From the NCBI GenBank assembly GCA_003558065.1, contig PWMU01000089.1:1-41597 (forward strand): a stretch of 41,597 nt of DNA. The letters are read 5' to 3'. Of this stretch, positions 1-38,032 are shown one piece after another. The DNA is from Opitutia bacterium (GTDB lineage Bacteria; Verrucomicrobiota; Verrucomicrobiia; Opitutales; T3Sed10-336). A program made the translations under genes and the position numbers. Numbering within the stretch: position 1 is the stretch's first letter; every line of letters begins with the position of its first letter. The notes under the pieces are model-generated. The model saw only the letters and a program-made list of their open reading frames with translations. It was not told where the DNA came from and did no database searches.

Positions 1-7
1 GATCCAT
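1..7 (-). CDS. Start of MrpD/MbhH-like antiporter subunit (partial, runs off left edge)
   Basis: The stop codon of the MrpC-like gene overlaps an ATG by one base (TAATG read on the minus strand, ATG at 7-5). In Mrp and MBH operons the gene after subunit C is subunit D (MbhH), a large NuoM/N-like proton or sodium channel subunit. Only two codons are inside the window, so the identity rests entirely on operon order. The one-base overlap suggests translational coupling. Confidence 0.4.
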
Positions 8-381
8 TACCGGCCCCTCATCCTTTCCATCAGTTCGGGCTCCTCCAGGGTTCCGAAGTTTCTGTAGATAGCGATGAGCAGGGCAAAGGCCACGCCGACG
101 ATCGCCACGCCGACCACGATGGCGGTGAGCATGAGCGTATGCGGCAGGGGATTGAGGTAATTGGCCGGATCCTCGGTGGATCGAGCCGGATCGAGCACCG
201 GAACAGTCGCCTCCCATTTGAAGGCTGCCGCCACGAACAGGAGAATAATCGAATTCTGAAAAATGATCATTCCGATCACTTTCTTCATGAGGTTCCTTTT
301 CATGAGCATCCCGTAAAGGCCGATGACCAGGAGCAACATGATCGCCCAGTAGGCGTAGTAGTTGTGCAGAAATTCAATCAT
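7..381 (-). CDS. mrpC: Mrp/MBH-type antiporter subunit C (NuoK-like)
   Basis: Small membrane subunit of a multi-subunit cation/H+ antiporter in the cytoplasmic membrane, homologous to NuoK. The 124-residue product has three hydrophobic segments (about residues 10-26, 35-54 and 84-108) and the NuoK/MrpC-like stretch KKVIGMIIFQNSIILLF, which contains the helix-2 region. It is the seventh gene of the leftward operon and lies 60 bases after the MrpB-like gene. The ATG at 381 has no clear Shine-Dalgarno sequence. The family assignment is firm. Whether the complex is a stand-alone Na+/H+ antiporter or part of a larger redox-linked complex cannot be decided from this window. Confidence 0.9.
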   Translation of the reverse strand: MIEFLHNYYAYWAIMLLLVIGLYGMLMKRNLMKKVIGMIIFQNSIILLFVAAAFKWEATVPVLDPARSTEDPANYLNPLPHTLMLTAIVVGVAIVGVAFALLIAIYRNFGTLEEPELMERMRGR

Positions 382-441
382 ATCGGTCGCGAAGTTTTTT
401 CATACCGGGTTCCACCGGAATTTAATTAATTCGGATCGGGT

Positions 442-930
442 TCAGATTTTCGGCGGCGCTCCCGTGCTCTCCGCCGGAGCATGCTCCCCGTCCCCGCCGG
501 GCGCCTGGCCGAGCATGTCGTCAAAGATGGCGACCAGCGCAGTCATCACCGCCAGCCCGATCCCGAACTCCACCAGAAGGATCCCGTAGTAGCGAACGAT
601 CGGCTCTTCCACTCCCGGAACCGGCACCGCGCCGTAATCCATGTAATAGCCGCCAAACGCAAGCGTCACCAGACCCGTGCCCGCGAAAATCAAAGCGCCG
701 AGCGAGGCGAGTGGGATGGCCGCCGCGGTGGAAGTCTCGGTCTGGGACTCACGGTAGCCCTCGGTCATGCGCAAAAGGATAACGCCGGCCGCCAGCAGGG
801 CGCCTCCCTGAAAGCCGCCCCCCGGACTGTAATGTCCGTGGATGATCACGTAAATACCGAAGAGCTGGATCAGCCGGGCTAGCGCGCGGCTGACCACGAC
901 GATGATCACACTTTCGGACGGGTTAGTCAT
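442..930 (-). CDS. mrpB: Mrp/MBH-type antiporter subunit B (MnhB domain)
   Basis: Membrane subunit of the Mrp-type cation/H+ antiporter. The 162-residue protein carries the MnhB-family signature GHYSPGGGFQGG in its first third (about residues 33-44), preceded by a hydrophobic helix and followed by two or three more (about residues 46-53, 72-92 and 115-138). The acidic and proline-rich C-terminal tail after residue 140 looks like a lineage-specific cytoplasmic extension. The start overlaps the end of the upstream MbhE-like gene by 8 bases, which supports co-translation. Family assignment is secure. Confidence 0.92.
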   Translation of the reverse strand: MTNPSESVIIVVVSRALARLIQLFGIYVIIHGHYSPGGGFQGGALLAAGVILLRMTEGYRESQTETSTAAAIPLASLGALIFAGTGLVTLAFGGYYMDYGAVPVPGVEEPIVRYYGILLVEFGIGLAVMTALVAIFDDMLGQAPGGDGEHAPAESTGAPPKI

Positions 931-1222
931 AGAGCCTCCTCCTCAGGATCAGAAAACAGCAGACGCCGGCGGTGAACACCACGAGTACCTCACCGAGCGT
1001 ATCCACGCTCCGGTAGTCGGCAAGAACCACGGTAACCATGTTGGGAGTGGCGGCATCGCGATAGGCGTTGCTGATGAAGTACGCGCCCGCCACCGGATCC
1101 CCGACCACGTTCTCCTGGCGGTGCATCGGGGCGTCCGCATCCCCCCGGGCCGGCAAGTGAACGGTTGCGTAGATCAGCAAGCCGGCGAAAACCGCGAGCA
1201 GTATGTAGTTAAGAATCCTCAA
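923..1222 (-). CDS. MbhE-like small membrane subunit (MrpA C-terminal segment as a separate gene)
   Basis: The 99-residue protein has an N-terminal membrane helix (residues 3-20), a soluble segment with GAYFISNAYRDAATPNMVT, then DYRSVDTLGEVLVVFTAGVC leading into a second helix. The 'N-V-V-x-V-(L/I)-x-D-(Y/F)-R-x-x-D-T-L-G-E' pattern is the hallmark of the region at the end of full-length MrpA, and of MbhE in membrane-bound hydrogenases. Here it is a free-standing gene. It overlaps the DUF4040 gene by four bases (ATGA) and the MrpB gene by eight. Role: membrane component of the antiporter module; its individual biochemical function is not established. Confidence 0.85.
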   Translation of the reverse strand: MRILNYILLAVFAGLLIYATVHLPARGDADAPMHRQENVVGDPVAGAYFISNAYRDAATPNMVTVVLADYRSVDTLGEVLVVFTAGVCCFLILRRRLYD

Positions 1223-1464
1223 TCCCGGGTCCTCCGCGAAGTTTGAAAGACCGCCGCAATAAAGTAGACTCCGACGATCCCGGCCCCGACGACGGCCTCG
1301 GTGAAGCCCACATCGATGGCTCCCATTGATACGAACAGGAGGGCCATGGTAAACGTAAACGCGGTCGCTGCAGCGGCCCCGGCCAGGAGGTCCCTGACCG
1401 ACAGGGCGAGGATCGCCGTGGTCAGGAGCAACAGGTACAGGACCAATTCGACGAGCCAGTTCAT
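1219..1464 (-). CDS. MbhD-like subunit (DUF4040; detached MrpA C-terminal segment)
   Basis: The 81-residue hydrophobic protein consists of three transmembrane stretches with the DUF4040/MbhD signature AIDVGFTEAVVGAGIVGVYF near residues 49-68. The start was set at the ATG at 1464 because GGGAGGA lies 7-10 bases upstream; an upstream ATG at 1503 would add 13 charged residues and has no such site. In classical seven-gene Mrp operons this segment is fused into MrpA. Here it is separate and coupled by four-base overlaps to the MrpG gene before it and the MbhE-like gene after it. Confidence 0.87.
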   Translation of the reverse strand: MNWLVELVLYLLLLTTAILALSVRDLLAGAAAATAFTFTMALLFVSMGAIDVGFTEAVVGAGIVGVYFIAAVFQTSRRTRD

Positions 1465-1793
1465 TTTGATTTCCTCCCGCCGGAATCGTCGCCGTTCGAC
1501 CATGGTCGTTCCCCGTAATTCCAGGCGGCGCGAGCCAGCGCGTGGACGGCCACCGGATTGGCGAGCATAATGACAGCGATGGTGATCAGCAGCTTTCCCA
1601 TCGCCTGGGTCGGCCCCTCGAAAACAGCCAGGCCCGCCAGCAGGAAGATAATTCCAGTGGTGTCGACCTTGCTCGCCGCGTGGGTACGGGTGAAAAAATC
1701 CGGCAGTCTCAGGATGCCGAGGCTCCCGACGAGCATGATCAGGAGTCCCGCCACGATGAGACTCGCTGCGACGATATCCTGGACCAGGCTCAT
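1461..1793 (-). CDS. mrpG: Mrp/MBH-type antiporter subunit G
   Basis: The 110-residue membrane protein has three hydrophobic helices and the MnhG/PhaG pattern GSLGILRLPDFFTRTHAASK (residues 24-43), which makes family assignment clear. The C-terminus is charged (GERPWSNGDDSGGRKSK). The start ATG at 1793 overlaps the stop of the MrpF gene by four bases, and this gene's own stop overlaps the next start. A longer in-frame reading up to 2111 exists but runs across the MrpF gene and has no membrane-protein character, so the short form was chosen. Confidence 0.92.
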   Translation of the reverse strand: MSLVQDIVAASLIVAGLLIMLVGSLGILRLPDFFTRTHAASKVDTTGIIFLLAGLAVFEGPTQAMGKLLITIAVIMLANPVAVHALARAAWNYGERPWSNGDDSGGRKSK

Positions 1794-2062
1794 TTCTCGG
1801 CGCTCCTTTCCCGGCTGAAGTATTTGGCCACGGCGATCCCGGCGATAAAATTCAGGGTAGCGTAGGCCAGCGCGATATCCGCGAACATGTAGAATCGCCC
1901 GTAAAGAAAGCCGAACATGCACACCAGCCCGACCGTCTTGGCCCCCATCGCACCGATTGCGAGCAGCCGGTCGAATACCGTGGGTCCCCGAATCACCCGG
2001 TAGAACGGCAGGAGAATGATCCCAACCAGGGCGACCGTTGCTCCGACAAAGAAGGATTCCAT
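1790..2062 (-). CDS. mrpF: Mrp/MBH-type antiporter subunit F
   Basis: The 90-residue protein has three transmembrane helices. It carries the MnhF signature YRVIRGPTVFDRLLAIGAMG (residues 21-40) and ADIALAYATLNFIAGIAVAKY (about 61-81). In this family the conserved Asp in 'PTVFDR' and the 'D-I-A-L-x-Y-A' motif lie in or near the membrane. It sits two bases after the MrpE stop and overlaps the MrpG start. It is a membrane subunit of the cation antiporter. MrpF/MbhB assignment is secure. Confidence 0.92.
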   Translation of the reverse strand: MESFFVGATVALVGIILLPFYRVIRGPTVFDRLLAIGAMGAKTVGLVCMFGFLYGRFYMFADIALAYATLNFIAGIAVAKYFSRERSAEK

Positions 2063-2064
2063 GG

Positions 2065-2646
2065 TCAGGCCTCCTCCTCATGTTTGAATTTTCGTCCCTC
2101 GCAAACCGCACCCTCTCCCGAACCCCCGAAGAGCCGGGAAACGTGCGACGGAATCGCCCCCTCCAGCAAGTCGTCCGCGTTTCGGCTTGTCAGGGCGTGC
2201 ACCCGGTAGCGGTCCCCGTCGATCTGCAGCGTCAGCGTTCCGGGTGTGAGCGTTATCGAATTTCCCAGCGTTACATGCGCCACAGAGTGTTGCTGAATGC
2301 TCCTAAACTCAACCAGGCAAGGATCGATGTTGATGCGGGGCGAAACAACAATTACAGCAACCTGCCAAGTGGCCTTGATCATCTGAACCGCAAGCCACGG
2401 AAGATAAAGAGGGAAACGGAACGAGTGGGCCATCAGAGATTGATCGGCCTTGTCCCGAGGGCCGATGGGGAGACGATGCTGAAGCCCCATCACAATTCCC
2501 ACTGCGGTCAACCCGAGCCCGATGTGGACGGGATCGAATTTCCCGCTCATGAGGAACCAGAAAACCAGCAATACGCCCGCTTCCACCCAAAAATAACCAT
2601 GACGGCGGCTGGATCCTGATGCACTGGTTGTCCGATTGTTTGGCAT
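2065..2646 (-). CDS. mrpE: Mrp/MBH-type antiporter subunit E (first gene of operon)
   Basis: The 193-residue protein has hydrophobic segments near residues 20-33, 42-55 and 77-101, followed by a soluble C-terminal domain. MnhE-family features include LPWLAVQMIKATWQVAVIVV and TLGNSITLTPGTLTLQIDGD (MrpE: 'xNSITLTPGTLT'). The ATG at 2646 is preceded by GAGGG nine bases upstream. It is the promoter-proximal gene, and the other operon members follow without gaps of more than about 60 bases. It probably contributes to assembly and stability of the antiporter membrane arm. Confidence 0.92.
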   Translation of the reverse strand: MPNNRTTSASGSSRRHGYFWVEAGVLLVFWFLMSGKFDPVHIGLGLTAVGIVMGLQHRLPIGPRDKADQSLMAHSFRFPLYLPWLAVQMIKATWQVAVIVVSPRINIDPCLVEFRSIQQHSVAHVTLGNSITLTPGTLTLQIDGDRYRVHALTSRNADDLLEGAIPSHVSRLFGGSGEGAVCEGRKFKHEEEA

Positions 2647-3027
2647 AACGTGATTCCCTCAAGTATCAGAAGGCTTCGCGTATAAAAAAAAAGAAGTTAG
2701 AAGGCGCCCTTCGGCGGTCAAGGGGAAAGGCTCAATCCTGTGGCCCTGCACGAAACATTTCCATAAACACAGCCCCCGGCCTTCAGGGGACCCTCCCCGG
2801 ACGGGCTCGGCCCCACACTCCGCCACCGCTGAAATCAAGCCACCTCAAGCACCGGCGGGGCCGGCACCCTGCCAAACAAATGACTCGGGCGTAATATTCC
2901 AATCCTTATTTTTCAGAATAAGAATCGATCACAATCCCTATTAGGCTCCGGGCCCCCTGATCGGATTCGGGTCGGCCCCCCATCGCGCCCGACGTCGCCC
3001 GTGCCGTCGCGGAACCTGAGAGAACTC
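2647..3027. other. Intergenic region between RND operon end and Mrp operon start
   Basis: Both flanking operons read leftward, so this 381-base gap must hold the end of the RND transcript and the Mrp promoter. No coding signal was seen. The only structures noticed are a weak AT-rich hairpin, CTTATT-tttcag-AATAAG at 2905-2922, without a T tract in either direction, and the promoter candidate reported separately. No convincing intrinsic terminator was found. Confidence 0.5.
2694..2721 (-). promoter_or_regulatory. Candidate sigma-70 promoter for the Mrp/MBH operon
   Basis: On the minus strand there is TTGACC (2721-2716), a 16-base spacer and TAACTT (2699-2694). The -35 box matches the consensus at five of six positions and the -10 at only three. 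It lies about 50 bases upstream of the mrpE start, a sensible distance. The run of T after the -10 on the transcript strand would give a U-rich leader. Confidence 0.35.
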
Positions 3028-6000
3028 CTACGCTTCCGCCGGTGCCGGCCGGCGGTTGCGATTGAACCAGATGTAGACAACAGGGATGATAAAGAGAGTG
3101 ATCAACCCGGAGCTGAGCAAGCCCCCGATCACCGCACGAGCGAGCGGAGCCTGGGCTTCAGCTCCCTCGCCGAGGCCCATGGCCAGGGGAACAAGCGCCA
3201 GAATGGTCGTAAGCGAAGTCATCAGAATCGGACGCAGGCGTCGCCGGCCGGCTTCCCGGGCCGCCTCTTCAGCCGACGCTCCCTGAGCCTGGAGACGGGA
3301 CGCCTGGTCGACAATAAGGATCGCGTTGTTAACGACGATTCCCCCAAGCATAATCAGGCCGATATAGGACTGAACATTGAGGGTGCTGCCGGTGAGAAAG
3401 AGCAGCATGAGGGCGCCGATACCGGCCATCGGAACCGAGAACATCACCACCAGGGGGTTGCGAAGGGACTCGTACAGGCACGCCATCACCATGTACACGA
3501 GCAGAATCGACAGCATCATGCTGATCAGGAGTTCCCGAAAGGCCTCCTGCTGCTCTTCATAATCCCCCCGGACAAACATCCGGGTGTTGGGAGGCGTGGG
3601 AATACCCTCAAGCACATCGAGAATATCCCGGCTGGCGGAACCCAGGTCACGACCGGAAAAATTCACCGACACATTGGAGACCCGCTGCTGGTTGTTGCGT
3701 TCAATCCGGGTGGGACCCGGTTCACGATCAAAGGTCACCAGGCTGCGCAGGGAAACCTGCTCCCCGTTGTTGTTGGGCAGTGTCAGGTCCAGGACATCCT
3801 GAAGCTCCATACGATCGGCGTCGCGCAAACGCAAGAGCATCCGAACCTCGTCTCCGTTGTCGCGAAACTCGCCGGCCCTGGATCCGCCGACGGCGGTGCG
3901 CAGCATGCGTGCGATCCGGCCGGTGCTCACTCCGAAGTCGGCGGCCCGATCCCGGTCGATTCGCACCAATTGCCGGGGCACCCCATCCTCGCGGCTGAGC
4001 TCCACATCGGTCACTCCCGGAATGTCCTCCACCGCCTCGGCCACCTGTCGCGCGAGAGCGTCCAGGGTATCGAGATCGAATCCCGTAATCTCGACGCCAA
4101 GCCGGTCGGCTTCGTCGCCGCCCGCGCCCATACGGAGTATGAAGAGGCCGCGACCGGGATTGACGCGCAAGGCAACGCCGGGAATGTCCCTCAACTTCTC
4201 GCGCAGATCGTCGGCAATTTGCTCGCTGGAGCGTTCCCGCTCGCGAATCGGAACGAGGTAGGCGCGGACGCTTCCGCGCATCTGCCCGCCGCCCCGCCAT
4301 CCCCAGGAACCGGACCGGACCTCCAGATTGGCGATTTCGTCGACGTTTTCCCTCACGATGCGTTCGATCTCACGCATCTTCGCATCCATAACCTCGATAC
4401 GGGTACCCGGTTCCATGTCCGCGTTGACCCGTACCTCTCCCTCGTCCGCTTCCGGCATGAATTCCGTTCCGAGGTGGGGCACCAAAAGGAGCGCGCCTGC
4501 AAACAGCAACACAGCGGCCGTGAAAACCGGCCCCGACCGCCGCAACGCCCGGTCGAGCAGGCTCCTGTAGCCGTTTTCGAAACGCCTGAAACGCTCCGCC
4601 GACCATTGAAGCACACGCCGCCCGGTCTCGCCGACCCGGCCGCGGCTTTTCGAGGCGGCTTCGGGCACGCGGGATGCCAGCATCGGCACCAGGCTCAAGG
4701 CCACCACCAGCGAACACAACTGGGTGAATCCGATCACGTAGGCCAGCTGCCGGAACATGACCCCGGTGACCCCTTCAAGAAACACCAGCGGCAAGAAAAT
4801 CGCCAGGGTGGTCAGGGTACTGGCCATGATCGCCGCGGCAACCTCCGACGCCCCCTGATGGGCCGCCTTATTCGGTGCGACGCCTCGTTCCCGCAGCCTG
4901 AAGATGTTTTCGAGAACAACGATGGCATTATCCACCATCATCCCCACTCCGAGCGCGATTCCGCCCAGGGTCATCAGGTTGAGCGTCAACCCGGTGAAGT
5001 ACATCAGGGAGAACGAGGCGATAATCGAGATGGGGATCGCTGTCGCTATGATCGCCGTACTGCGGAAACTGCGGAGAAAGAAAAGGAGGACGACGATGGC
5101 CAGCGCGCCTCCGTAAAGGATGGAGCGGTTGACGTTGGCGATCGATCTTTGAATATACTCGGAGGTGTCCCGGATCGGGGTCAGGGTCACCTGCGGGAAA
5201 TCCCGGTTGATCCGGGCGATTTCCCGCCTGACGTCGCGCACCACCTGGACGGTGTTGGTTCCCGATTGTTTGCGCACGGCGAGACTGACTCCCGGCTCCC
5301 CGTTGATGCGGGTGATCCGGGTTATCTCGGCGTGGGTGTCGTCAACCTCGGCAACTTGTCCGAGGTAAACGGGCGCGCCGTCGCGTTTAGCAACCACAAC
5401 ATCCCGCAGCTCATCCATGGTGGACAGCAGGCCGGGAGTCCGCAAGGCGACACGCAGACGCCCGTCCTCGATCTCACCGGCGGGAACCACCACATTCTCC
5501 TCGCGGATGGCGTCGAGCAGGCTCTCCAGGGAGAGCCCCAGGCCGCGCACCCGTTCCGGGTCGACCTGGATCTGGATTTCCCGCTCCAAACCGCCCCACA
5601 CATCCACCGCCCCGACTCCCGGAACCCGGTCGAGCCGGTTGCGAATCTGGTTATCGAGCAGCCGGCGCAAATCGATCGCGTCCAGGCGGCTGGAGGCGCC
5701 CAGAATGATCACGGGAAAGGCATTGGGATCGAATTTTCTCAATTGAGGGCGGTCCGCATCGTCCGGAAGATTGTTGAGCACCCGGTCGAGGCGATCCCGA
5801 ACGTCGTTGGAGGCTTCATCGAGATTCGTCCCCCAAATGAACGACAGCCTCACGCTGCTGCTGCCTTCGCTCGAAACCGAAGTCACTTCTTCAACACCCG
5901 GAACGGCCGCGACCGCCTCTTCCACCGGACGAGTGATCAATTGTTCGATCTCCTCCGGACTCGCGTTGTCGTAACCGGTCACAACGGTCAGGCGCGGAAA

Positions 6001-6123
6001 CTCGATCTCGGGAATGAGATCGATCGGGAGCCGGGCGAGGGAGATCGCCCCCACCAGGATGACAATCAAGGAAACCATGACCGTGAAAACCGGCCGGTTG
6101 ATGCTGAACGAAGACAGGCTCAT
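3028..6123 (-). CDS. RND-family efflux pump inner-membrane transporter (AcrB/HAE1 type)
   Basis: Proton-driven inner-membrane pump that expels substrates through a tripartite complex. The 1031-residue length is standard. N-terminal [20 protein letters not shown] (residues 6-25) is TM1. The two large periplasmic loops, the paired TM bundles and the C-terminal [21 protein letters not shown] are all recognisable. TM4 has [13 protein letters not shown], with Asp398 present and Asn399 where AcrB has a second Asp; this D-N form is common in HAE1 pumps outside enterobacteria. The ATG at 6123 overlaps the stop of the adaptor gene by four bases. No outer-membrane factor gene is adjacent, so the exit channel must come from elsewhere. 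Substrate unknown. Confidence 0.95.
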
Positions 6124-7352
6124 CGTACCTCCAGAGGCTCCTCCACCTGCGCCACCCCGTCGTCCATGTCCCCGGGATCCCTGTGCCCGACCACCCGCAA
6201 CGGTGTGCCGTCGGCCAGTTGATCCTGCCCCAGGACCACTACGTCACCGCTCAGTTCAGGCTCGGTGATCTGGAGGCGGCCCCCCTCGATGTAACCGGTA
6301 CCCACTTCGACGAACCGGGCTTCGTCACCCTCTTCGCCGCTTCCAACCAGAAAAACCCCTTCCCGCCCTTCACGGCGCACCAGCGAATCACGCGGAACCA
6401 CGACCGCATCCTCCACGCGCCCGAGCTCCAGGGTCACCCGGACGAATTGTCCCGGGGTCAGCCTTCCCTCGGGGTTGGGCACGTCGAGTTCCACCCGGGC
6501 GTGCCGCGATGACTCCCGGAACTGCGGGGCGCGCCGGATGACCGCCCCTTCAAATCGCTCTCCGGGGAGCACATCCGTCGTCACCGTTCCATCCTGTCCG
6601 ATCTCGATACGGGGATAATCCCGCTCGGTCACTTGAATCACCGCCCGAAGGCTTTGCAGATCGACCAGGGAAACGATCGGTTCGTTGGCGGTCAACGTGG
6701 TCCCTTCGTCCACGTACCGTTCACCCACCACCCGAACGTCCCCGCCGCTCTCCCAGCGGGCGACGATTTTGGTGTAGGATAGCCGGAGCTCAGCGGCCCG
6801 CAGCGCGGCCTCGCGCTGCTTGATGGTGGCGTCGGCAACGCGAACACGGGAACGCTCCGCCAGAACCTTCGCTTCCGCAGCCTCCAGGTCGGCCGCCGAG
6901 GCCACCCTTCGCTCGCGCAGGGCACGAACCCGGTCCCGCTCGCGCTCCGCGAGTTCGAGCGAGCTTTCCGCCTCCTCGAGATTCGCACGGGCCACCTCGA
7001 GTTCGGCCTCAGCCTGTGCCACCTCCTGAACAAACTCCTCATCGTCGAGCCGTGCAATCACCTGATTGCGTTCGATGGGATCGCCTATATCCACCTCCAG
7101 CGAGGCCAGCTGCCCGCCCACCTTCGCAACAACATCAAACCGGAAACGGGATGAAAGAGATCCGGTGAACGTCCGCAGATTCCGGATCGTATCGCGCTCG
7201 ACAGCGCTCACCTCGACCGCCACCGCACTTTCACCGCGGTCGGGGCGGTCACCGGCCTCCCCTTCGGAGAACCTCTGGTAAAACAGGGCGGCCAGCGCCG
7301 CAGCCAACAGTCCTCCGAAAATGAGCATCAAGAATTTCCTCACACGATTCAT
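6120..7352 (-). CDS. RND efflux periplasmic adaptor (membrane fusion protein, HlyD/AcrA type)
   Basis: Periplasmic adaptor linking the RND pump to an outer-membrane channel. The 410-residue protein has an N-terminal membrane anchor (about residues 6-25), the first half of a barrel-sandwich/lipoyl domain (VVAKVGGQLASLEVDIGDPI, near 75-94), and a long Ala/Glu/Arg-rich coiled-coil hairpin (about 108-190). The second lipoyl half and beta-barrel domains follow (LTPGQFVRVTLELG near 300). The start ATG overlaps the TetR gene stop by four bases and is preceded by GGAAGG. Co-transcription with the regulator upstream and the pump downstream is very likely. Confidence 0.94.
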   Translation of the reverse strand: MNRVRKFLMLIFGGLLAAALAALFYQRFSEGEAGDRPDRGESAVAVEVSAVERDTIRNLRTFTGSLSSRFRFDVVAKVGGQLASLEVDIGDPIERNQVIARLDDEEFVQEVAQAEAELEVARANLEEAESSLELAERERDRVRALRERRVASAADLEAAEAKVLAERSRVRVADATIKQREAALRAAELRLSYTKIVARWESGGDVRVVGERYVDEGTTLTANEPIVSLVDLQSLRAVIQVTERDYPRIEIGQDGTVTTDVLPGERFEGAVIRRAPQFRESSRHARVELDVPNPEGRLTPGQFVRVTLELGRVEDAVVVPRDSLVRREGREGVFLVGSGEEGDEARFVEVGTGYIEGGRLQITEPELSGDVVVLGQDQLADGTPLRVVGHRDPGDMDDGVAQVEEPLEVR

Positions 7353-7987
7353 AACAACGATCCTTCCAACTCTCCGCCCAAACCGGTTCCGCCAGCGCCG
7401 GCGGGCGCCCTTGGCCCGGCGCCGTTCAGGAACAGCTCCAGCACAAATTCATTCGATTGAAAACGGGGCTCCGCCTCGCCCAGGTCGCGCGAGCGGGTGC
7501 GAAGCATCCCGAGGAGAAAGTTTGCCAGGACGCCGGCCGGAACATCCCCGCGAAGCCGGCCCTGCCCCTGGCCGTGCTCGAGCACCCCGGCAACCGCATC
7601 GACCAGACTGCCCCGGCGACGCATCCATTTGTCCCGCAATCGCTTGTGGCATTGAACAAAACGCACGTCCTCGCTCTGCATCGACTGGAATATCGCCCGG
7701 CGGTCGCGAAAGAACGAACGGATCTCCTCACATACGGCCGCCAGGTTGCGCTCGAAGGGCAGTCCCTCCCCGGCACGGGCCTCGATCCCGGCACACAGCT
7801 CGTCAAACCCCGCAAAAATGACCTGGAAGAAAAGATCCTCCTTGTCCTCGAAGTGCAGGTAAATCGTCCCCTTCCCGACACCGGCACGCACGGCAACCTC
7901 ATCCAGCCTGATCTCGCGCCAATGCCGCTCGGTCATGAGCGACTCCGCCGCCCGCAAAATCCGATCCTTTTTCTCCGCTTTTTTCAC
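7349..7987 (-). CDS. TetR/AcrR-family transcriptional regulator of the RND operon
   Basis: Predicted DNA-binding repressor, 212 residues from the GTG at 7987. The N-terminal helix-turn-helix is typical: RILRAAESLMTERHWREIRL, then DEVAVRAGVGKGTIYLHFED (residues about 25-45). The C-terminal ligand-binding domain is divergent, so the inducer is unknown. The reading frame is open back to a TTG at 8062, but an 18-bp perfect palindrome (8021-8038) typical of a TetR operator would then lie inside the coding sequence. The GTG start gives the usual family length and puts the operator in the leader. The gene overlaps the adaptor gene by four bases, making a regulator-adaptor-pump operon that is probably autoregulated. 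Confidence 0.88.
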   Translation of the reverse strand: MKKAEKKDRILRAAESLMTERHWREIRLDEVAVRAGVGKGTIYLHFEDKEDLFFQVIFAGFDELCAGIEARAGEGLPFERNLAAVCEEIRSFFRDRRAIFQSMQSEDVRFVQCHKRLRDKWMRRRGSLVDAVAGVLEHGQGQGRLRGDVPAGVLANFLLGMLRTRSRDLGEAEPRFQSNEFVLELFLNGAGPRAPAGAGGTGLGGELEGSLL

Positions 7988-8020
7988 AATGACTGAAGGG
8001 GGTTCAGCTCCCGCACTCTG

Positions 8021-8038
8021 AAACTGACCGGTCAGTTT
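8021..8038. promoter_or_regulatory. Putative TetR-type operator (18-bp perfect palindrome)
   Basis: AAACTGACCGGTCAGTTT is a perfect two-fold palindrome. The core TGACCGGTCA is the kind of site bound by TetR/AcrR-type repressors of efflux operons. It lies 34 bases upstream of the chosen tetR start and about 50 bases upstream of the rightward promoter at 8087, so one protein bound here could influence both directions. The binding protein is inferred from position, not shown. Confidence 0.72.
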
Positions 8039-8086
8039 TTGTGGGGTTTCATCCGAATGCAAGATTTCTTCGATGCAAACGGTCCC

Positions 8087-36030: not shown

Positions 36031-36765
36031 ATGATAACGCATACGGAAAATAGAATGAAGTGTCCTCGTTTAAACTCACGCTATCGCTCTCACGGCGGTT
36101 TCACATTGATTGAATTGCTTACTGTGATCGCCATCATCGGCATCCTGGCCTCGATCCTGATTCCGACGGTGAGCGCCGTTCGGGAATCGGCACGCAATGC
36201 CACCTGCGTCAGCAACGTACGTCAGATCGGCACCGGTATCATATCGGCTGCCATGGACAATAACGGACAGTTCCCTCGAATCGACCAGTACGACATCAAC
36301 TGGAACATGGTCGAAGCACTCATGCAGGCGGTCGAGCCGTACATGGAGGAAGGCTTCGGTACCGGCGAGCACCCGGCCAACGCCAGCGCCGAACATGCGG
36401 TTGGTGTCTGGAGGTGCCCGACAATCATGTCGCAGCGCTTCATCCAATGGTCCTATTACCCGAACGGGGATATGTGGATGGAGAGTTCCGGGCGCATCGG
36501 TCGTTCGCTCGACGATCTCCCTGTTCCAACACGATTTCCGATGATCTATGACCGCGGTGTCGACAACATCTCGGATACTTCAACTTTTGGCGGCAACTGG
36601 CAACCGGGCACTCAATTGAACCCAAGAAGCGGTTGGCACTCCAACAATCGCATCAACGTCGCCTTTGCCGACGGAAGCGCCCGCGGCTACACCTACACGC
36701 GGGACTCTTCGGAAGAGTTCTACCAAATCCTGCAGGAAGCCGATCCGGATAACTGGGAATTCTAG
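36031..36765 (+). CDS. Prepilin-type N-terminal methylation domain protein with H-x9-DG motif (pseudopilin 1)
   Basis: The 244-residue type IV pilin-like or pseudopilin protein has a class III signal: a short positive leader, then GG followed by [20 protein letters not shown] with Glu at +5. A soluble domain follows with conserved cysteines in ATCVSN and WRCP, and the C-terminal motif [21 protein letters not shown] (H-x9-DG). Such proteins are abundant in Planctomycetes-Verrucomicrobia-Lentisphaerae genomes, and their function is mostly unknown. It is a clear tandem paralogue of the next gene. The ATG at 36031 is used; the ATG at 36055 (MKCPRLNS) would give a shorter leader and is equally plausible. 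Confidence 0.9.
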
Positions 36766-37276: not shown

Positions 37277-38032
37277 ATGATTCAGAAAAACACAATGAAC
37301 CGCCACACATCCTGTCGCTCGGCTTTTACATTGATCGAACTCCTTACCGTTATCGCCATCATCGGCATTCTGGCTTCTATCCTTATTCCGACGCTGGGTG
37401 CCGTACGCGAATCCGCCAGGAGTGCGACCTGCGTCAGCAACCTCCGTCAGATCGGCCTGGGGATGGTCGCCGCGGCCAACGACAATGATGACCGTTTTAT
37501 CCATCTCCCGCGCAACCCCGATTCCAGTGACGGAAACTGGCCGTGGAATCCGATTGTCGCGCTCATGGTCACTCTCGACCCGTACATGGACAAAGGAGTC
37601 CAGACCGGCCTTTTCCCCGGAAACCCGACAGCCGAACACGCCATTGGAGTCTGGCGTTGTCCGACCCCTGAAGGCCAGCGGTTCCTTCAGTGGCCGTACT
37701 ACCCAAGCGGATGGCTGTGGTCCGGCTCGAACAGCGAATACCTGGCCCTCGGACGTTCCGTCCATTCCATCGGCGTGGAACTCACCCGCTTCCCCTTGAT
37801 CAGCGACCGCGGAAGCGACAATATTTCCGGTGGGGGAGGCCCCAACTTCGGCAGCTGGAGCCTCGGCGCCTCCGGATCCAGCGGATTCAACCCGCATGAG
37901 GGCTGGCATTCCAATAACCGCTTGAACGTCGCCTTCGCCGACGGGAGCGTACGCAGCTACACCTACGTACGGGGCGAGCCGGGTGACTTCGCGGATATTC
38001 TGACCGAGGCCCAGCCGAACAACTGGCCTTAG
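37277..38032 (+). CDS. Prepilin-type N-terminal methylation domain protein with H-x9-DG motif (pseudopilin 2)
   Basis: The 251-residue paralogue of the preceding pseudopilin shares the N-helix [20 protein letters not shown], the segment [49 protein letters not shown] and [21 protein letters not shown]. The pre-cleavage residue is Ala (CRSA before FTLIE) instead of the usual Gly, which may slow processing by prepilin peptidase. A start at the ATG at 37295 (MNRHTSC) would leave a leader of ten residues and a more normal untranslated region; the ATG at 37277 is the longer form. Likely exposed on the surface or part of a type II-like pseudopilus; role unknown. Confidence 0.9.

Follow-up and report, generated by a model that had tools for sequence, protein, structure and literature searches.

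The window analysed here is a stretch of 41,597 nucleotides that makes up the entire contig C194 (PWMU01000089.1) of the 4.13-Mb, 197-contig genome (G000) of an Opitutia bacterium, and its first 2,646 bases carry half of an operon for Mrp-type antiporter subunits. Read on the minus strand from position 2646 to position 1, the genes are mrpE, mrpF, mrpG, MbhD (DUF4040), MbhE, mrpB and mrpC, followed by the first codons of mrpD (Table 1). All seven complete genes exceed their Pfam gathering scores, which confirms the order E-F-G-DUF4040-MbhE-like-B-C-(D) given in a preliminary description of this DNA, and NCBIfam makes the same assignments, mostly at scores under its strict cut-offs. The claim that the C-terminal segments of MrpA form two separate small genes also holds by Pfam, as the MbhD gene corresponds by sequence to the first half of the MrpA C-terminal domain and the MbhE gene to the second half. 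The MrpE subunit keeps its TPGT motif (T134-P135-G136-T137). From mrpE to mrpC the successive intergenic distances are +2, −4, −4, −4, −8 and +60 bases, the mrpC stop and mrpD start overlap as TAATG (complement 9..5), and a Shine-Dalgarno-like sequence precedes most gene starts of the operon, such as GGAAAGGAG upstream of mrpG. Hence the near-complete translational coupling noted earlier is seen in the overlaps and short gaps, with the 60-base gap between mrpB and mrpC as the exception.

Table 1. Positions of the operon genes and of the upstream spacer, in window coordinates or, for the second half of the operon, in those of locus L059 on contig C146.
Feature	Location	Strand	Evidence and remarks
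mrpE, first operon gene, 193 aa	2065..2646	-	Pfam MNHE 1.6e-26; PDB MBS subunit A 2.4e-17
mrpF, 90 aa	1790..2062	-	Pfam MrpF_PhaF 3.2e-12; aligned to 7qru_F, 6u8y_B, 6cfw_B
mrpG, 110 aa from ATG 1793	1461..1793	-	Pfam PhaG_MnhG 1.7e-24
MbhD/DUF4040 gene, 81 aa from ATG 1464	1219..1464	-	Pfam MbhD 9.1e-12; PDB MBS and MBH subunit D
MbhE gene, 99 aa, TTG start	923..1222	-	Pfam MbhE 1.1e-10; PDB 7d3u_A, 6u8y_E, 6z16_A
mrpB, 162 aa	442..930	-	Pfam MnhB 1.6e-25
mrpC / NuoK-like, 124 aa	7..381	-	Pfam Oxidored_q2 8.3e-21
mrpD (D1) start	1..7, ATG complement 7..5	-	overlaps mrpC stop, then cut by contig end
Spacer, upstream RND pump gene to mrpE	2647..3027	-	terminator-like hairpins 2792-2771, 2712-2700
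D1 (mrpD continued), 467 aa without first residues	C146, L059 10290..8887		
D2, second antiporter-like subunit, 498 aa	C146, L059 8846..7350		
X, 65-aa membrane protein between D2 and D3	C146, L059 7331..7134		
D3, third antiporter-like subunit with lateral-helix tail, 573 aa	C146, L059 7147..5426		

The genes that decide what kind of complex is encoded had been placed just left of the window, which is where contig C194 ends. The same genome has 16 Proton_antipo_M matches, three of which lie at the end of contig C146, pointing into the contig interior, and these correspond to the remainder of mrpD (D1) and to two further antiporter-like genes (D2 and D3), with a gene for a small protein, X, between the latter two. 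Judged from the relative G002, the assembly gap takes up about 35 codons of mrpD. Beyond D3 on C146 lie unrelated genes, a DTW-like gene and then a GNAT/nitrilase fusion (both named from reading the translations). The relative G001, from the same genus, carries on one contig an RND (resistance-nodulation-division) pump gene, the whole set from mrpE to D3, two other open reading frames and then DTW-like and GNAT/nitrilase genes, and as the same neighbours thus occur on both sides, C194 and C146 are taken to be adjacent. The leftward extension suggested earlier therefore returned no redox or NiFe-hydrogenase genes after mrpD and instead further antiporter-like genes together with X. The ending foreseen for a plain antiporter, in which mrpD is followed by a NuoL/MrpA-N-terminal gene only, proved right in that no redox gene is present and wrong in that there are three antiporter-like genes and X, none of them in the NuoL/MrpA-N clade.

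Two other contigs were rejected as the continuation: C138, which is a nuoK-L-M-N end, and C110, whose Mrp-like cluster has its own F, C and E genes and its own fused MbhD-E-B gene. This second Mrp-like cluster (C110, L058 4499-11782) consists of F, G, a fused MbhD-MbhE-MrpB gene (347 aa), C and two antiporter-like genes, one of which is sister to the D2 clade, and it ends with a highly diverged third antiporter-like gene and E; no X was seen in it.

The distribution of the cassette was followed at two levels. Among 53 relatives searched, an MrpB match was found in 26 (this genome counted), and the cassette region was taken from eight others. Its order is identical in all eight; it is uncut in G001, G002, G004, G007, G010 and G034, and it breaks off inside D3 in G003 and G005, G003 also being without mrpE. 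X was read or matched in seven of the eight, with an open frame at its position in G001, and in G007 homology to D3 continues beyond a stop codon. When 84,980 species genomes were scanned with an alignment of D3, at least 530 relatives came up, of which the best 80 loci (L numbers; G002, G003, G004 and G034 recur here as L060, L064, L061 and L093) were analysed and sorted by hand. A complete Mrp set is present at 47 of the 80, complex I operons account for seven (L126, L127, L129, L130, L136, L137 and L139), and the remaining 26 are truncated at a contig end or gap. The canonical cassette, that is the order of the window with X, occurs at 40 loci, which represent 14 named phyla (one archaeal) plus two loci without a named phylum; in this count entries titled 'Deltaproteobacteria' were filed under Myxococcota, which is doubtful. 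The other complete sets comprise one without X (L091), four in which mrpB has moved (L109, L121, L122 and L131), one that is rotated (L114) and one in which D3 is fused to the C-terminal part of MrpA (L135). The NCBIfam model NF009310 (PRK12668), which recognises D3, exceeds its cut-off in 13 of 288 genomes of the phylum and in none of 14 control genomes.

The three large subunits are distinct from one another. In a FastTree phylogeny of 130 rows (30 of the 80 loci, picked by hand, plus references, with long branches flagged), all D3 sequences form one clade (support 100), as do the D2 sequences of the block (100), and D1 from Mrp contexts forms a clade near MrpD and NuoN, with NuoL, MrpA-N and HyfD elsewhere; none of the three subunits falls in the NuoL/MrpA-N clade of this tree. 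Among solved chains D1 is nearest to MbsH. For the residues we use E. coli NuoL numbering, in which the numbers are presumed and the letters were checked in the alignment. D2 retains Glu144, Lys229, His254, His338, Lys342 and Lys399 in 66 of 66 sequences, His254 being present, among five references, only in NuoL and MrpA. D3 retains Glu144, Lys342 and Lys399 in 80 of 80, and at Lys229, the otherwise universal lysine of transmembrane helix 7 (TM7), it has Asn in 79 and Ser in one. An AlphaFold2 model of D3 (made for the G002 homologue with 37 sequences; mean predicted local distance difference test score, pLDDT, 87.6) has a NuoL/MrpA-N-like body and a tail of two helices (494-528 and 546-571) at lower confidence. 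Its best structural matches are NuoL and MrpA chains (Z ∼44), and it superimposes on B. pseudofirmus MrpA over 490 residues at 2.4 Å. Despite their place in the tree, D2 has the histidine of NuoL/MrpA-N, and D3 has its fold, its lateral helix and, at L135, its fusion to MrpA-C. In this Nitrospirota mrp operon the fused protein has 765 aa, with D2-X before it and B-C-D-E-F-G after it, which points to D3 as the occupant of the MrpA-N position and to D2-X as an added piece.

Of the 77 loci that include the stretch just before D3 (L080, L104 and L112 start inside D3 and are outside the count), 75 encode the small protein X directly upstream of D3; X is absent from L090 and L091. Its profile is roughly W..IP.F.A..G..GC...K.LG...EDYYD, with the Gly conserved in 68 of 68 sequences and the second Tyr in 67 of 68, and when modelled alone it forms two helices (pLDDT 77). 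X had no credible family match in Pfam or NCBIfam, the best match to PDB sequences had an E value of 0.25, and no description of X or of the missing D3 lysine was found in the open-access papers searched. A fusion of X into the haloarchaeal D2 was sought and not found, the extra length there being an acidic insert. A second, diverged X gene occurs in each of two delta-type bacteria, downstream of the cassette in L109 (12134-12352) and downstream of a cut copy of the cassette in L106 (2675-4640), where it is followed by a second D3.

These features bear on the simplest account of the operon, which is that it encodes a plain Na+/H+ antiporter with split MrpA, D2 and D3 being diverged copies of MrpA-N or MrpD of ordinary function and X being unimportant. 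Doubled D genes are described in cyanobacterial group 3 mrp clusters (PMC5703873), which would agree with this account, as does the name 'Na(+)/H(+) antiporter subunit D' that NF009310 assigns to D3 (623.9 bits against a cut-off of 564). However, the near-invariant Asn of D3, the steady place and conservation of X, and the recurrence of D2-X-D3 as a block in complex I operons all speak against two ordinary copies and a dispensable small protein, and we regard this account as unlikely, though it is the strongest of the alternatives.

A second account, favoured by the gene order, makes the operon the membrane arm of a redox complex (membrane-bound hydrogenase (MBH), MBS/MBX or formate-linked), with redox genes adjacent or in trans. 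The gene order of MBH is A-B-C-D-E-F-G-H. The order found here is the same, in agreement with the earlier statement that links it to mbhA to mbhH of Pyrococcus-type membrane-bound hydrogenase, the PDB matches include MBH and MBS subunits, and the Glu/Gly pattern of MbhD is MBH-like. The continuation D1-D2-X-D3 is nevertheless followed by unrelated genes, in this genome as in the relatives read, and no NuoB/C/D/G/H/I-like gene was found inside any of the 40 canonical cassettes (queries from this genome, E up to 0.01). Such a gene lies several kb away at two of the 40, L072 and L134; L072 has a hydrogenase-4-like cluster some kb downstream. In this genome the NuoD-type matches are on C96, C28, C72 and C97, away from the operon, and the single NiFe hydrogenase (C48, L172 5085-10521) stands beside HoxE/F/Y-type genes and is, judged from these neighbours, a Hox-type NAD-linked cluster; no group-4-like hydrogenase was recognised in this genome. 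As the operon has no redox subunit, a redox arm is not supported here, and we consider this account highly unlikely, although at two Ignavibacteria loci (L078 and L085) the complete cassette is flanked by nuoM-type and nuoN-type genes. The suggestion of an antiporter arm of a redox complex is thus not supported, and the split-MrpA antiporter offered as its alternative stands, given a continuation free of redox subunits and relatives whose one-contig cassettes end alike. At L062 and, by position, L067, NuoL/M-type genes are divergent beside the cassette, and these neighbourhoods, like those of L072, L078 and L085, count against a wholly separate role. In this genome, C72 (L057 8419-15006) holds a complex I cluster with four antiporter-like genes (L, two M-type and N), like the published 2M complex I.

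Comparison with known systems places the operon more closely. By gene content the operon is Mrp (CPA3) in the broad, group 3 sense, as it unites homologues of MrpB, C, D, E, F and G with those of the MrpA C-terminal domain, and the irregular order and split or doubled large subunits are shared with group 3 Mrp of the cyanobacterial mrpCD1D2EFGAB type. In classical group 1/2 Mrp a full-length MrpA comes first, whereas here MrpA-C is two genes and the large subunits come last. In the group 3 mrp cluster of Ca. Nitrospira alkalitolerans, mrpD is followed by two NuoM/NuoL-like genes (PMC7784846); compared by description, these are most likely of the same kind as D2 and D3, and the available part of the mrp description in that source does not mention X. 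MBH, MBS and MBX of Pyrococcus share the order E-F-G-D-E-B-C-H and the separate MbhD and MbhE genes, but the operon described here lacks redox subunits and has the additional D2-X, its D3 has Asn in place of the Lys of MbsH' and MbhH, and it lacks the MrpF Asp that MBH and MBS possess. The haloarchaeal mrp operon of a Halosolutus plasmid (E-F-G-DUF4040-B-C-D1-D2-D3) also has Asn in D3, but it differs in its fused MbhD-MbhE, the lack of X and the acidic insert in D2.

The closest link outside the Mrp family is to green complex I, whose NuoL is replaced by a pair of MrpD-like subunits (PMC9040806, PMC7415380). On pSymA of S. meliloti, whose nuo complex is taken to be a green complex I, the genes run nuoK, D2, an 84-aa hypothetical protein, D3, nuoM and nuoN, and then nuoA to nuoF. 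Green complex I of rhizobia and of relatives in Desulfobacteria has an orthologous D2-X-D3 in the place of NuoL, as here; unlike the present operon, it comes with nuo redox genes (nuoA-F and others) and without mrpE, F, G, B, MbhD and MbhE. The parts consulted of PMC8879329 and PMC5419562 contain nothing on this subunit pair, the latter only naming green complex I. A tree of 83 D3 rows, 49 labelled as Mrp, eight as complex I and 26 unlabelled, has a single change between the two contexts, with the complex I copies nested inside the antiporter copies. Given the unlabelled rows and a very long haloarchaeal root branch, the direction of this change is only probable, and green complex I may have taken its distal D2-X-D3 end from the antiporter class.

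We propose, with a probability of roughly 0.8, that the eleven genes E-F-G-MbhD-MbhE-B-C-D1-D2-X-D3 form an operon for a stand-alone monovalent cation/proton antiporter of the Mrp type (CPA3), with split MrpA and of the irregular group 3 kind. On the model of solved Mrp complexes, the membrane potential would draw protons inward through the row of antiporter-like subunits, and this flow would power the export of one cation, most likely Na+, via the part made of MrpA-C (MbhD/MbhE), B, C, F, G and E. The single MrpA-N/NuoL position would be filled by two proteins. D2 would bring the histidine switch of NuoL/MrpA and the full set of proton-path residues (Glu in TM5, Lys in TM7, His and Lys in TM8, Lys in TM12). 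D3 has the lateral-helix tail and no TM7 lysine, and may for these reasons serve less as an ordinary pump than as a brace and terminal gate. The two-helix protein X, encoded between them, would clamp D2 to D3.

Several points weigh against this proposal. Antiport by D2-X-D3 operons is a prediction only, and the join of C194 to C146 is made by synteny, with about 100 bases falling in the gap. The placement of the cassette inside a nuo operon in the Ignavibacteria suggests a working link with complex I and makes a partnership with it possible. The TM7 lysine that D3 lacks is one whose equivalent, when mutated, abolishes antiport in MrpA and MrpD (PMC5703873). Finally, in the cation path, numbered after B. 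pseudofirmus Mrp (PMC9568556), MrpF Asp38 is missing: the position is G37 in the window and, over 51 loci, G in 28, N in 13, S in five, A in two, T in two and D in one. The position of MrpA Glu687, set from a motif in classical MrpA, is Gly in 49 of 50 loci, with a Glu four residues earlier in 50 of 50 (MbhD E56 in 50/50 and G60 in 49/50), a pattern that is MBH/MBS-like in sequence.

With the known cation entry site altered in this way, Na+ may not be the ion or another path may be taken, and it has to be considered that the complex moves another ion (K+ or Ca2+), or serves bicarbonate uptake indirectly, rather than exporting Na+. Ca2+ exchange has been reported for at least one Mrp antiporter (PMC5703873), and in Ca. 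N. alkalitolerans the mrp cluster adjoins BicA (PMC7784846). Against this, the exit site keeps its acids: its residues MbhE D69, R71, D74 and E78 (the last three each in 52 of 52 loci) and MrpB F40 (52/52) are conserved. MrpG P80 is conserved as well (51/51). The relatives G002, G003 and G004 are sediment metagenome-assembled genomes whose isolate codes, CSSed and T3Sed, we take to denote soda-lake samples, and such an origin would favour Na+. A different ion or a bicarbonate role thus appears improbable, although less so than a redox arm, and Na+/H+ antiport is retained as the preferred reading.

For this genome alone, the result is an ordinary ion-homeostasis operon that fits a probable soda-lake Opitutales. 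The variant, widespread and little studied, is partly known already from Ca. Nitrospira alkalitolerans, haloarchaea and rhizobial complex I. The D2-X-D3 block goes beyond the routine, as do the residue pattern of this block and its occurrence in green complex I as well. More tentatively, and at slightly less than even odds, these operons may represent a distinct Mrp-type class in which the MrpA-N/NuoL pump is split into D2 and D3 tied by X, the cation path is rerouted, and from which green complex I took D2-X-D3 once. How ion movement is coupled along the membrane arm is a question common to complex I and Mrp, and a natural class that lacks the supposedly essential lysine of the third subunit and the cation-entry aspartate would be a ready-made test of the models, free of redox chemistry. 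It would also suggest an origin for the extra pump of green complex I, and it adds X, a small and conserved membrane subunit for which these searches of Pfam, NCBIfam and the PDB found no counterpart.

Upstream of mrpE, the spacer contains three terminator-like matches, two of them overlapping, against 0.6 expected, and no sigma-70-like promoter was found within it; transcription of the operon probably begins at a start of its own. Positions 3028-8062 of the window (minus strand) hold the RND-type pump gene, a membrane-fusion-like gene and a gene for a TetR-like regulator, all named by eye; the pump gene is kept upstream of mrpE in G001 and G002, and the fusion-like gene in G002. At the other end of the window, the proteins encoded at 36031-36765 and 37277-38032 on the plus strand share an almost identical prepilin-like N-terminus, as judged by eye.

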